NCBI RefSeq assembly: GCF_002019695.1
Contig: NZ_KV917376.1
Location: 3,726,282 to 3,790,281 of the forward strand
Source of the DNA: Evansella clarkii
GTDB lineage: Bacteria; Bacillota; Bacilli; Bacillales; Salisediminibacteriaceae
Reading direction: 5' to 3'
Length of the DNA stretch: 64,000 bases
A program made the position numbers and the translations under genes. The notes beneath the pieces were generated by a model that saw nothing but the letters and a program-made list of their open reading frames with translations, was not told where the DNA came from and ran no database searches. Positions within the stretch are counted from its first letter, which is position 1. Each line of letters begins with the position of its first letter. Shown here piece by piece: positions 6,111 through 9,558 of the stretch.

Positions 6111-6138
6111 TAAAAGCCGCCTAAGTAAATAGACGGCA
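6111..6138 (-). terminator. Terminator of the TerB-linked operon
   Basis: The stem GCCGTC / GGCGGC on the minus strand is followed by TTTTAAAT, 14 bp after the last gene of the four-gene operon. Confidence 0.6.
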
Positions 6139-6151
6139 TATCCACTCTGTA

Positions 6152-7174
6152 TTAAAATGTTTTTTGAGCCTGAATTTTATGAAGTGCATCTCTTCCCGTA
6201 TTTAATACTTCTGCAGATTTTCTTGTAATCTCACCATCTTCATCAAGTAATGGTGTATCAATGACACCTTTAATTAACTGAGCAGTTAAAATTACTTTTT
6301 GAATGGCTTCTTTCTCGTCACGTGTAAAATCATTCCAGTTTGTACCTTTGTCTGAAATTATTGATTTCAGTGTATTGATACCAGCGAGAAATACATCATT
6401 TATATCTGTTAATAATGAATGAAGTAAATCAGACCTTCTTCTAATAGCTGATAAAACAGTTGTTGCACTATTCATTTGTTCTGCAATAGTTCTGGCCTCA
6501 CTTAAATTTTCGTATGCAGAATTCAACTTCTTTTTCGATTGGGCAGACATAATTAATCCTCCGACCGCTAAAGCAGGTCCAGCAACAATTCCACCTAATA
6601 CTAAAGTCCCTCCTGCAATTCCATAACCTCCTGCAGACAGTGCTCCGCCACCTAACCAGGCTAAAGTAGCGTTAGTGGCAGCAACCCCACTTAAACCACT
6701 AATTGCCGCACCGGTTGAAGCTGTACCTAAAGCCATTGTACCAGCATAAGCTCCATAAGCTGCCGCAACTCCTGTACCTAATGAAGCCAGGCCTCCACTT
6801 GCAACTTTTACAGCTTTGTATGAATCAGTTTCCAGATCATTTAAAAGATCTCTGGAAACACCAATATGCTTCAACTCTTCGATCCCCACAGTATTTTCGT
6901 TTAATTCAACATTTTTTAGTAATTGAAAGTAAGTTACAAAGTCTTTTACTGAAGAGGAGAGAATACTTATTTTATTTTTCCCTAAAGTTTCAATACTTTC
7001 GTTTGTTGTTTTACGTTCAGTGTTTAATATATGTTCTGCATCGTCTACAATTCCACGAGCCATCTGATTAACATTCTTAGCTTCTTTTGAATTTTTTGCC
7101 GCTTTGACTCCACTTCCAACACCACTAATGGCAGTGGCTGCAATTACTCCGGCAGCAATAAAAGGAATTGGCAT
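6152..7174 (-). CDS. Gly/Ala-rich membrane-active protein, unknown
   Basis: A 340-residue protein. It has a hydrophobic N-terminus (about 1-28, beginning MPIPFIAAGVIAATA), a charged helical region, then a long glycine/alanine-rich hydrophobic block (about 125-212) that could form several membrane hairpins, and a helical C-terminal domain. There is no known catalytic motif. The layout resembles proteins loosely annotated as glycine-zipper or pore-type proteins. It is last in a four-gene operon (51 bp after the preceding gene) with TerB-like and cysteine-cluster proteins. AGGAGATGAG precedes the ATG. Function unknown; a membrane effector role is only inference. Confidence 0.7.
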   Translation of the reverse strand: MPIPFIAAGVIAATAISGVGSGVKAAKNSKEAKNVNQMARGIVDDAEHILNTERKTTNESIETLGKNKISILSSSVKDFVTYFQLLKNVELNENTVGIEELKHIGVSRDLLNDLETDSYKAVKVASGGLASLGTGVAAAYGAYAGTMALGTASTGAAISGLSGVAATNATLAWLGGGALSAGGYGIAGGTLVLGGIVAGPALAVGGLIMSAQSKKKLNSAYENLSEARTIAEQMNSATTVLSAIRRRSDLLHSLLTDINDVFLAGINTLKSIISDKGTNWNDFTRDEKEAIQKVILTAQLIKGVIDTPLLDEDGEITRKSAEVLNTGRDALHKIQAQKTF

Positions 7175-7225
7175 ATTCTCATCTCCTATGATTGTTTAAA
7201 AATATTACCCACTTTAATTAGTAAA

Positions 7226-8860
7226 TCAAAACTTAAATACACTTGAATCGTCAGACATAAAATCATCAAACTCATCGAAGTTCGTAAATTGTAGTTCTAC
7301 TCCAAAAGTAATTGCCAGTTCATCAAGATTTTCTACAAAACTTTGATGGTCGCCAGTAAACAATGCATTATTGATAGCAGAAAAACTTCGTTCAAATACT
7401 TCCTGGCGCTGGTTCATATGTACTTCAATTAACTGGGTTAACTCCTGGTGCTGCATTTTAATTGATTCAATAGCTTCCTCTGCCATTTGCTCGACTATTA
7501 AACGATTTTCTTCTGATAGATTTCCTTCTTTCAATAAATCCATGGAAGATTTATAAATTGTGGAACTTGTCATATATCCAACCATTCCACCGACGACTGT
7601 GCCTACTCCCGGGAAAATAGCAGTACCAACTGCAGCACCCATACTTGCTGCCATCATGCCTGTACCTTTTTCACCTAGTTCTTCTATAAGCTGCAATTCA
7701 TCAAATTCTTCTTCCGTCAAATAACGTTTTATAGACTTTCCGACTTCTAAACTAGCTGTTGCGATCATGGCAGGCATATTAGTTTTAGAAAGATTGCGAA
7801 ATACTTCTTTCCCGCTGCGTTCCATAATTGCTTTAACAGCAGTTCCGGAATAGCCTGTAGCATAACTCAAAGTTGCTGCCCCTGCAGTATCTTTGGCTAC
7901 ATTAAGAGAAACTTTCTTTATATCCTTCTCTTCTCCTCTGGCAATTGCAACAATATTTCTTGAAACAGAAATTGCCCCACCAATAATGGCCCCATTCTTT
8001 GCCTGTTTTAACCCTGCACGATGCGAAACAGAGTGCACCTCTTTTACTGTCTGGAGTTTCGGGTTAGTTCGAGCACTCATAGCGTCTTTACTGGTCACAC
8101 TCTTTTTAATCCGCTTATCAACGGATTCTACGCGTTCTAATTGCGCTTTTTTTGCTTCTGCAGCTTTCATATCCCCCTTTTTTTCAAGGGTCTTTATTTG
8201 CTGTTTTAAGTCACTTTTTTGCTCTTTTAAATATTTTTTAGCAAAATCATACTGCTCAGATGGTATATCCAGAGACTCGGCTTTTTTGTATTTGGAGTAG
8301 TCTTTATTAAATAATTCTTTTACATTATCTTTAGCACTTAGTTCAACAAGTTTCCCTTCTGTTAAATCTTTTGGCGGTTTCCAGTTCGGGTTATTTTTTT
8401 GCTTCATTTTTATGTACTCATCAACATCATAATGCCCACGTAGTTTCATCTGGGAAGTACCTGTAAAATTTCCTTGCTGATCGAGAATTGCTTTCCCATT
8501 AACATCAGTTTTTACATGGTCAAACTCCTGGTGATTCGTTTTCCCTAATGCATCCGTTCTCCGGATCCTGTCTTTGGATTTGTTAATAATGTTTTCAGCA
8601 TTTGTTCTGCTTTCATGCAATACCTCACCAGCAAATCCTGCTTGCTGTTTCAGAGATTGATATGTATCACCTTTTGATCTTGCAATATCTTTAAGTCCTT
8701 TTATTACACTTCCATCAGGACTAATTTCACCTTTATATCCTTTAATAAACTCGGAGGCAGCACTGCCATAACGCTCTACTACCTCAGAAGCCGCAGCACC
8801 TATTGCAGCGTTTACTGCAGAATCTGTATTTTTCTTATTATTGCTTATTTTGTTCTCCAA
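7226..8860 (-). CDS. Large protein with Gly-zipper segments, unknown
   Basis: A 544-residue protein. The N-terminus is AAIGAAASEVVERYGSAASE, followed by a charged, lysine-rich coiled-coil-like middle (about 180-260), then Ala/Gly hydrophobic segments (about 285-305, 325-345 and a strong one near 395-435 with GAAVGTAIFPGVGTVVGG), and an acidic C-terminus. The start is TTG at 8860, with GGGGG upstream, and lies 23 bp inside the cysteine-cluster gene, so translation is coupled. No enzyme motif is recognised. Its membrane-compatible segments parallel those of the next gene, suggesting the two act together at a membrane. Confidence 0.7.
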   Translation of the reverse strand: MENKISNNKKNTDSAVNAAIGAAASEVVERYGSAASEFIKGYKGEISPDGSVIKGLKDIARSKGDTYQSLKQQAGFAGEVLHESRTNAENIINKSKDRIRRTDALGKTNHQEFDHVKTDVNGKAILDQQGNFTGTSQMKLRGHYDVDEYIKMKQKNNPNWKPPKDLTEGKLVELSAKDNVKELFNKDYSKYKKAESLDIPSEQYDFAKKYLKEQKSDLKQQIKTLEKKGDMKAAEAKKAQLERVESVDKRIKKSVTSKDAMSARTNPKLQTVKEVHSVSHRAGLKQAKNGAIIGGAISVSRNIVAIARGEEKDIKKVSLNVAKDTAGAATLSYATGYSGTAVKAIMERSGKEVFRNLSKTNMPAMIATASLEVGKSIKRYLTEEEFDELQLIEELGEKGTGMMAASMGAAVGTAIFPGVGTVVGGMVGYMTSSTIYKSSMDLLKEGNLSEENRLIVEQMAEEAIESIKMQHQELTQLIEVHMNQRQEVFERSFSAINNALFTGDHQSFVENLDELAITFGVELQFTNFDEFDDFMSDDSSVFKF

Positions 8861-9179
8861 TTAATAACCCCCAGTATTTATCTAGATCAATTTGTGCTGC
8901 TTCACTGAGATTATTGTCAACTTGCATTTCTTTACACGCCTTAAGATTTATTAAATAATACTCTTCTTTGGAAAATTGTTTATGATATGTTTTTTCATAC
9001 ATTTCATCAATTCGACAGATCAACGGCCTGGTCTCATATATAGAGCACTTATTATTTATTAAAAATTTGCATGCCCCATCACCATTGTTATAAGCCTCCA
9101 ACTCGACTATATGACCTATGTTTTTGCAACATAACCCACAAGAGTTACAGGGAAACGGATTAGACTCCAACCAGCTCAT
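8838..9179 (-). CDS. YkgJ-type cysteine cluster protein
   Basis: A 113-residue protein with the CxxCGxCC core (CNSCGLCC, about residues 9-16), then CKFLINNKCSIYETRPLICR. This is the pattern of the zinc- or iron-chelating YkgJ/CxxCxxCC family. The family is thought to bind a metal or Fe-S cluster; partners vary. It overlaps the TerB-like gene upstream by 20 bp and the 544-residue gene downstream by 23 bp, so all three are translated as one unit. It may mature or sense through the large partner proteins, but this is not shown. Confidence 0.8.
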   Translation of the reverse strand: MSWLESNPFPCNSCGLCCKNIGHIVELEAYNNGDGACKFLINNKCSIYETRPLICRIDEMYEKTYHKQFSKEEYYLINLKACKEMQVDNNLSEAAQIDLDKYWGLLIGEQNKQ

Positions 9180-9558
9180 TTGCTTGTGAATAAAGTGAAT
9201 TTACTTTAATTACCCAGCCTTTAAATTGTTCATACTCATCATCACTAATTGCCAAAGCTTCTTTTATCTCCTGAATTAAGTTTTTCTGTTCTTCTTGATA
9301 AATACCATCAGCAAAAGCTACAGCTATAGCTTCCAGAAAAACAATACGCTTAATTCTCTCACTCTTAAAAACTTGTACTATTTCCTGCAAAGTCAATTCC
9401 TTTAAATCCTCAATTTTATAATTAACTCCCATTTCACGATCATATGTTTCCAGCATTTTTTGTTCATTCTCATCAATAATACCATTCGAAATCGCTACTA
9501 AATGAGCTAATTCTAAAAAAGCTACTTTTTCTTCAGCATTTAATTCTTGTAAAAACAT
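9160..9558 (-). CDS. TerB-like helical protein
   Basis: A 132-residue all-helical protein with the TerB pattern: two repeated helical units with acidic loops (ISNGIIDENEQKML and FADGIYQEEQKNL), which resemble metal-binding EF-hand-like turns. TerB-fold proteins occur in tellurite resistance and in many membrane-associated stress and conflict systems. It is the first gene of the four-gene operon, with AGGAGG nine bases before the ATG. A sensor or metal-binding role is inferred from the fold. Confidence 0.75.
   Translation of the reverse strand: MFLQELNAEEKVAFLELAHLVAISNGIIDENEQKMLETYDREMGVNYKIEDLKELTLQEIVQVFKSERIKRIVFLEAIAVAFADGIYQEEQKNLIQEIKEALAISDDEYEQFKGWVIKVNSLYSQANELVGV

Follow-up and report, generated by a model that had tools for sequence, protein, structure and literature searches.

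An Evansella clarkii operon is one version of a recurrent module with an exchangeable enzyme domain and a possible role in defence

We analyzed a stretch of 64,000 nucleotides of the Evansella clarkii genome (hereafter, the window; assembly GCF_002019695.1, contig NZ_KV917376.1, positions 3,726,282 to 3,790,281 of the forward strand), in which four adjacent genes encode a TerB-like protein, a YkgJ-type cysteine-cluster protein and two large proteins. The names A and B are used throughout for the 340-amino-acid (aa) and the 544-aa protein, respectively, and for their relatives. We found that these four genes represent one form of a recurrent module, whose B protein has an exchangeable N-terminal enzyme domain and whose optional parts are TerB, YkgJ and a WYL regulator (coordinates in Table 1). 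On balance, we lean slightly toward reading the operon as a chromosomal module that defends the cell from phages or other invading DNA. An earlier interpretation made from the letters of the window (the sequence-only reading) had proposed a stress, toxin-type or defence module; the defence option is supported by the match of A to the PADLOC model PDC-M09A, the relationship of B to BnzB of the Bunzi system, the WYL regulators adjacent to related loci and the sporadic distribution of the module.

The related loci were collected by searching genome contigs with a five-sequence alignment of A, and the best 80 of at least 369 relatives of A were retained. Fetching used A only, and B, TerB and YkgJ were located afterwards by iterated profile searches with the window proteins; a partner gene was counted when it was found within 3 kb of A on the same strand. 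Because the loci were selected on A only, the co-occurrence of the three other genes is an independent result. B was found near A in 76 of the 80 loci, TerB in 47, YkgJ in 42 and all four genes in 21, with 19 loci lying near the end of a contig or stretch. Among the loci without B, two have A close to the stretch end (L084 and L091) and two have a B-type gene farther away (L042 and L067); the C-terminal domain of B is present in 77 of the 80 loci. Core genes are co-oriented in every locus, and 152 of the 173 consecutive gaps measure at most 60 bp. The 80 loci span 11 phyla, mainly Pseudomonadota (36 loci) and Bacillota (32 loci). The sequence-only reading had raised the recurrence of the set in distant taxa, and this holds for gene content and not for gene order: the window order TerB-YkgJ-544-340 was found in none of the 80 loci, among which nineteen distinct gene strings were counted (content and order, cut-off loci included). 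Two A-type open reading frames (ORFs) were each observed in L033 and L037, and two TerB-type genes each in L060 and L074. In Pseudomonas putida 31753 (L067, 4823-7990), TerB is matched in two parts that lie about 2.4 kb apart and enclose other ORFs, as if an insertion had split the gene.

The membrane and C-terminal part of B is kept while its N-terminal part varies among loci. In addition to two PD-(D/E)XK-like classes, one of which includes the window protein, an LRAT domain was identified by Pfam at the N-terminus in L013 and L088 (E 4.4e-19 and 8.5e-21), with which L015 clusters. Four other B proteins (L055, L026, L058 and L083) present an HNH-like motif, a label that rests on the residues D101-H102, N129, N133, N142 and K145 being invariant in these four sequences; Pfam gives no HNH family for them and the PDB sequence search none, and the protein of L083 matches the profile of B residues 1-400 only and not the C-terminal profile. 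A cluster of 12 loci carries a BnzB-type N-terminus: the three that were scanned (L024, L040 and L042) all match PADLOC BnzB, and an M48-type HExxH stretch was found in five of the 12, with Pfam confirmation in the two scanned (L027 and L040; E 1.2e-12 and 1.3e-14). The N-terminal domain is of an unrecognised type in L023, L034 and L038, and little beyond the C-terminal domain remains in L009, L010, L011 and L085. We mapped these classes on a tree of A and counted at least 14 changes over eight states (the minimum being seven); these counts are approximate because this quick tree (81 rows) contains many weak branches. A PD-(D/E)XK type (L077) is nested within a supported BnzB group and the LRAT type within the second PD-(D/E)XK class. 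The N-terminal enzyme domain of B is exchangeable. The tree covers the loci other than six without a class (L005, L006, L031, L071, L084 and L092), L091 with its split A, L046 with an A outside the length range, and L008, which lacks A. In L065 (5170-7179), which belongs to the cluster of 12, a NUDIX domain (E 3.3e-24) precedes the BnzB-type part, which represents either a fusion or a miscalled start codon. The B protein of L055 also matched the PADLOC candidate PDC-M40B (E 3.1e-7, residues 33-220), which was not used as evidence.

In the window, residues 56-205 of B are predicted to form a PD-(D/E)XK-like nuclease domain, based on sequence conservation and on the AlphaFold model. The N-terminus presents a helix-strand-strand-strand-helix order that is compatible with a PD-(D/E)XK nuclease core, and the active-site pattern E...D...(D/E/Q)xK is satisfied by E79, D114, Q137 and K139. 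Across 64 B-type proteins chosen blindly to the motif, conservation reached 54 for G75, 56 for E79, 57 for D114, 49 for Q137, 53 for K139 and 57 for Y191. The same six residues are found in 33-34 of the 34 members of the window's class, and the pattern in 14 of 14 members of the second class. The rows of the first class were picked by a pattern requiring G..E and those of the second partly by a QxK-based pattern or by eye, so conservation inside the two classes is partly a product of this choice, whereas the counts over 64 proteins are unselected. The class alignment leaves aside L007, L008, L049, L063 and L067; the QxK motif is two columns off in the last three of these and in L039, which was retained. 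The two classes were linked by hhalign (98.2%, E 4e-14). These results overturn the earlier statement that neither large protein has a known enzyme motif, since B carries the conserved pattern GxxxE...D...QxK. No known nuclease was matched by the B N-terminus in Pfam, the PDB or two trial families (best PDB sequence match at E 0.51), and structure and profile searches gave no significant match to the restriction-endonuclease-like fold, with a control pair that was also weak. Against UPF0102 and Mrr_cat, hhalign returned probabilities of 0.2-1.6%, which hardly exceed three negative controls. UPF0102 and Mrr are both accepted PD-(D/E)XK families and reached only 10.6% against each other, which indicates that this trial is insensitive.

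The rest of B consists of a Gly-zipper region, with a hydrophobic stretch at residues 401-429 in which G420 and G424 are nearly invariant, and of a C-terminal helical domain that is common to PDC-M09B-type and BnzB-type proteins and stands nearly alone in the short B proteins. NCBIfam gave a weak match to PdsO for residues 406-515 (24 bits relative to a cut-off of 152), which was left unused.

Protein A matches PDC-M09A over residues 26-297 and is modelled with two long helices on either side of a Gly/Ala-rich head. As noted in the sequence-only reading, Gly/Ala-rich blocks are indeed present: residues 125-210 contain 23 Gly, 21 Ala and zero charged residues. This property is shared by the family, with a median of zero and a maximum of one charged residue in the head of 76 aligned sequences, and numerous Gly, Thr and Asn residues of the head are invariant in the alignment. 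These features suggest, from sequence, that the head has the look expected of a membrane-inserting hairpin. The alpha-helical pore formers ClyA, AhlB and SmhB combine long helices and an apolar head, an arrangement that A may share, and all three were among the better rows of a Foldseek search with A, at non-significant E values (best E 0.063). Because this similarity is non-significant, pore formation is a property that we infer for A. The joint membrane role proposed earlier for the two large proteins is supported for A, by sequence only. The profile of A also matched Programmed cell death protein 10 in the PDB (E 0.0029, residues 217-322), which we ascribe to helix composition.

Polymorphic toxins also feature exchangeable enzyme domains and Gly-zipper helices. 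The module could in principle serve competition between cells as a secreted or polymorphic toxin-like system, in which B would be a toxin with an exchangeable catalytic domain and A its delivery or pore subunit. The alpha-pore toxins among the weak Foldseek rows of A are in line with this, as is an NCBIfam search in which A weakly matched alpha-xenorhabdolysin A (E 0.035; 13.4 bits relative to a cut-off of 125). However, polymorphic toxins usually vary at their C-terminus, whereas the enzyme of B is N-terminal. In addition, no immunity gene was seen among the 143 flanking genes of at least 110 aa that we analyzed from 75 loci (six of them sit between core genes), since no family other than WYL recurs in more than six loci. 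We consider this alternative unlikely.

The genes surrounding the A/B core are less constant. The presence and absence of TerB and YkgJ on the tree of A require at least 14 and at least 16 changes, respectively, and these two genes are accessory because many relatives do without them. Of 49 aligned TerB-type proteins, that of the window among them, 29 reach E 0.01 with the Pfam TerB model, and the seven-Cys pattern is kept in 44 of 45 YkgJ-type sequences. In the PDB, two E values for TerB against solved structures of TerB type were 0.013 and 0.026, and the best match of YkgJ was to zinc fingers (E 0.046). Both window proteins exceed their Pfam cut-offs, which bears out the folds recognised earlier. 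These domains could instead indicate a metal or membrane-stress response operon, with TerB and YkgJ handling metals and A and B remodeling the membrane; a CutC-family gene, a family linked to copper, is located upstream of the window operon. However, the two domains come and go among loci as described above, one genome (G005) has a CutC gene without the operon, and nuclease-like, protease and LRAT warheads fit poorly with such a response. Moreover, the Ter tellurite-resistance operon combines TerB with TerC, TerD and TerZ, whereas TerB stands alone in the window set, with none of these three found by Pfam among the four genes. We consider a metal-stress function very unlikely. Pfam describes the YkgJ-type domain only as putatively zinc- or iron-chelating, and the module supplies a concrete setting for it. 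Since natural cores exist with and without each gene, the role of TerB and YkgJ in bacterial conflict becomes testable.

WYL genes are the third optional part. A WYL domain was found in 22 of the 143 flanking genes, one in each of 22 loci, and lies directly beside the core in 22 of the 80 loci. Two BLAST clusters contain the WYL flank genes, and 11 of their 26 members were individually matched to WYL; 26 of the 80 loci have a member of these clusters in their flanks, and in 19 of these loci it is co-oriented with the core and immediately upstream of it. Genome-wide, one to five WYL genes per genome were found (57 in total, over 20 of the genomes). WYL proteins regulate several defence systems, such as CapW and BrxR. 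No WYL gene was recognised adjoining the window operon.

The distribution of the module is sporadic. Among 35 genomes of the same family, B was found in one and A-like proteins in four, window genome included. One of the family loci (L004) has a BnzB-matching gene immediately before A and another (L005) a near-identical pair; in a third (L006), no BnzB-matching gene was found within its 3.6-kb stretch. A search of 398 genomes of the class with the B profile gave matches at E 0.001 in 27, eight of which, the window genome among them, fall below 1e-50. The Enterobacter operon was unmatched in E. coli genomes, and the FtsX-side and cutC-side flanks of the window operon were not found together in any other same-genus genome, leaving no empty site to compare. 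A search of 50,697 phage records gave no match, and one partial match was found among viral contigs.

Relatives of A were found in five plasmid records with one query and in nine with another. On a Vitreoscilla plasmid, a set of annotated helicase, DNA methyltransferase and specificity-subunit genes that resembles a type I restriction operon is followed immediately by A, a 154-aa protein with the C-terminal domain of B (E 4.9e-10) and YkgJ. Plasmids of Acetobacter (typed conjugative), Allochromatium and Cupriavidus carry A a short distance from YkgJ and have no ORF there that fits one of the B profiles; on the Acetobacter and Allochromatium plasmids, a 540-aa protein of a different kind is encoded between the two genes. 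In Allochromatium vinosum pALVIN02 (L119, 7157-8791), this protein of 540-544 aa contains an HNH-like DHVISAKEIH stretch; neither B profile matches it, and it reaches the cut-off of no Pfam family. On the Ruminococcus albus plasmid pRUMAL01 (L008, 3124-9311), a B-type gene follows the genes of a HerA-like ATPase and of a protein of 543 aa, and no A relative was found in the stretch; this is a different operon that shares the nuclease-like domain of B. Rather than in anti-phage defence, the module might function in the maintenance or exclusion of plasmids or mobile elements, as could be expected from relatives on plasmids, one of them conjugative, and from the lack of matches in phage records. 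The contig that carries the window operon, however, measures at least 3.79 Mb, and we view this alternative as rather unlikely.

Under the defence reading, co-occurrence, modularity, the conserved motif and the apolar head are computed features, and membrane insertion, nuclease activity, sensing and the defence role itself are inferred. A and the C-terminal part of B may form a membrane-associated complex through the charge-free Gly/Ala head of A and the Gly zipper of B, and this complex would stay inactive as long as the cell is healthy. Its release could be triggered by a cue of infection, for instance an altered metal, redox or membrane state that may be read via TerB and YkgJ. A would then insert into the inner membrane and the warhead of B, here the predicted PD-(D/E)XK nuclease, would cut DNA at the membrane, such that incoming DNA would be degraded or the infected cell killed. 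In such a scheme, TerB and YkgJ would act as tuning or sensing parts and the enzyme as a payload on a membrane core. The short loci, which contain A and only the C-terminal domain of B, suggest that the minimal activity lies in the membrane step of these two parts, to which the enzyme would be an addition.

The coordinates of the four ORFs given earlier were reproduced exactly: all are on the minus strand in the order TerB-like, YkgJ-like, B and A, with overlaps of 20 and 23 bp followed by a 51-bp gap. Runs resembling ribosome-binding sites are found upstream of TerB (AGGAGG), B (GGGGG, before its TTG start) and A (AGGAG), with no obvious run upstream of the YkgJ start. The terminator noted behind the last gene corresponds to a hairpin and T run (6137-6116) that is a consensus match only. 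Between 5900 and 9950 of the window, nine terminator-like sites were observed relative to 2.5 expected from shuffles, several of them within coding genes. Pfam identified no family above its cut-off in A or B.

Table 1. Positions in the window of the four genes, the predicted domains of A and B and the terminator-like hairpin (pLDDT, predicted local distance difference test).
Feature	Position	Strand	Basis
TerB-like protein, 132 aa	9160..9558	-	Pfam PF05099 32.9 bits, cut-off 24.4; optional accessory gene
YkgJ-type CxxCxxCC cysteine-cluster protein, 113 aa	8838..9179	-	Pfam PF03692 32.9 bits, cut-off 23; optional accessory gene
Protein B, 544 aa, TTG start	7226..8860	-	ORF; relatives near A in 76/80 loci
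B residues 56-205, predicted PD-(D/E)XK-like nuclease domain	8246..8695	-	G75, E79, D114, Q137, K139, Y191
B residues 267-440, Gly-zipper helical membrane-compatible region	7541..8062	-	AlphaFold helices; pLDDT <50 at 412-450
B residues 441-544, C-terminal helical domain	7229..7540	-	Profile matches
Protein A, 340 aa	6152..7174	-	PADLOC PDC-M09A E 9.6e-27
A residues 7-83, long N-terminal helix	6926..7156	-	AlphaFold model
A residues 128-207, charge-free Gly/Ala-rich head	6554..6793	-	0 charged residues; pLDDT <50 at 149-207
A residues 206-276, second long helix	6347..6559	-	AlphaFold model
Intrinsic-terminator-like hairpin, 8 pairs, then TTTT	6116..6137	-	Behind A; consensus match only

We then compared the module to known systems. 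PDC-M09, an unvalidated phage defence candidate of PADLOC, has the same A and B core, and its B model is matched by the B relatives of Azospirillum (L007, 2.4e-21) and Enterobacter (L035, 1.8e-15). Unlike PDC-M09, the window operon also includes TerB and YkgJ, and window B matched no PADLOC family up to E 1, hence neither PDC-M09B nor BnzB. The sequence-only reading had considered the system to be undescribed; this does not stand, as the A/B pair is already catalogued as PDC-M09. Bunzi consists of BnzA and BnzB and is tabulated with a TerB domain (PMC10952713). Its likeness to the module lies in the BnzB-type proteins (e.g., L024), which carry the C-terminal domain of B and adjoin TerB and relatives of A, and in two same-genus genomes in which a BnzB-type gene precedes a relative of A. 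BnzA (PDLC03833) was not found in the window genome (G000). The window operon is excluded from PDC-M09 by its B protein and from Bunzi by both proteins, though its relatives bridge to both.

The two same-genus pairs (L104, 7451-9999, in G003; L105, 8437-10985, in G008) have WYL genes 0.9 and 3.8 kb away and no match to BnzA in their genomes; they possibly represent a Bunzi-like pair without BnzA. The A relative of L004 matches PDC-M09A at E 2.6e-72. In the genome of L042 (G433), two separate parts of a 1034-aa frame (L116/L117) match PADLOC BnzA (E 6.9e-11 and 1.9e-6).

Other systems share TerB. Shango, an anti-phage operon, comprises a TerB-like protein, an ATPase and a helicase (PMC10250203). 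The window shares only the TerB-domain gene with it (Pfam 32.9 bits), since no ATPase or helicase Pfam match was found among the four window proteins. Dionysus is a defence system with a TerB homologue according to a review (PMC12926258), and our module may be identical to it. The four-gene form and the exchangeable enzymes were not met in print, within a search that left most subscription papers outside and does not prove their absence. Any claim of novelty is limited by the catalogued A/B pair and by the possible identity with Dionysus.

It is quite possible, at just under an even chance, that the BnzB-type Bunzi loci, PDC-M09 and the window operon are branches of one immune architecture: a constant core for membrane insertion, made up of A and mostly also the C-terminal domain of B, combined with plug-in enzymes (two PD-(D/E)XK-like classes, HNH-like, LRAT, M48 protease and BnzB-type) and regulators (TerB, YkgJ and WYL). 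If so, this architecture would constitute a membrane-anchored counterpart of the systems that swap effectors behind a common core. The shared parts of the module connect the mechanistically obscure Bunzi with PDC-M09, an untested database candidate.

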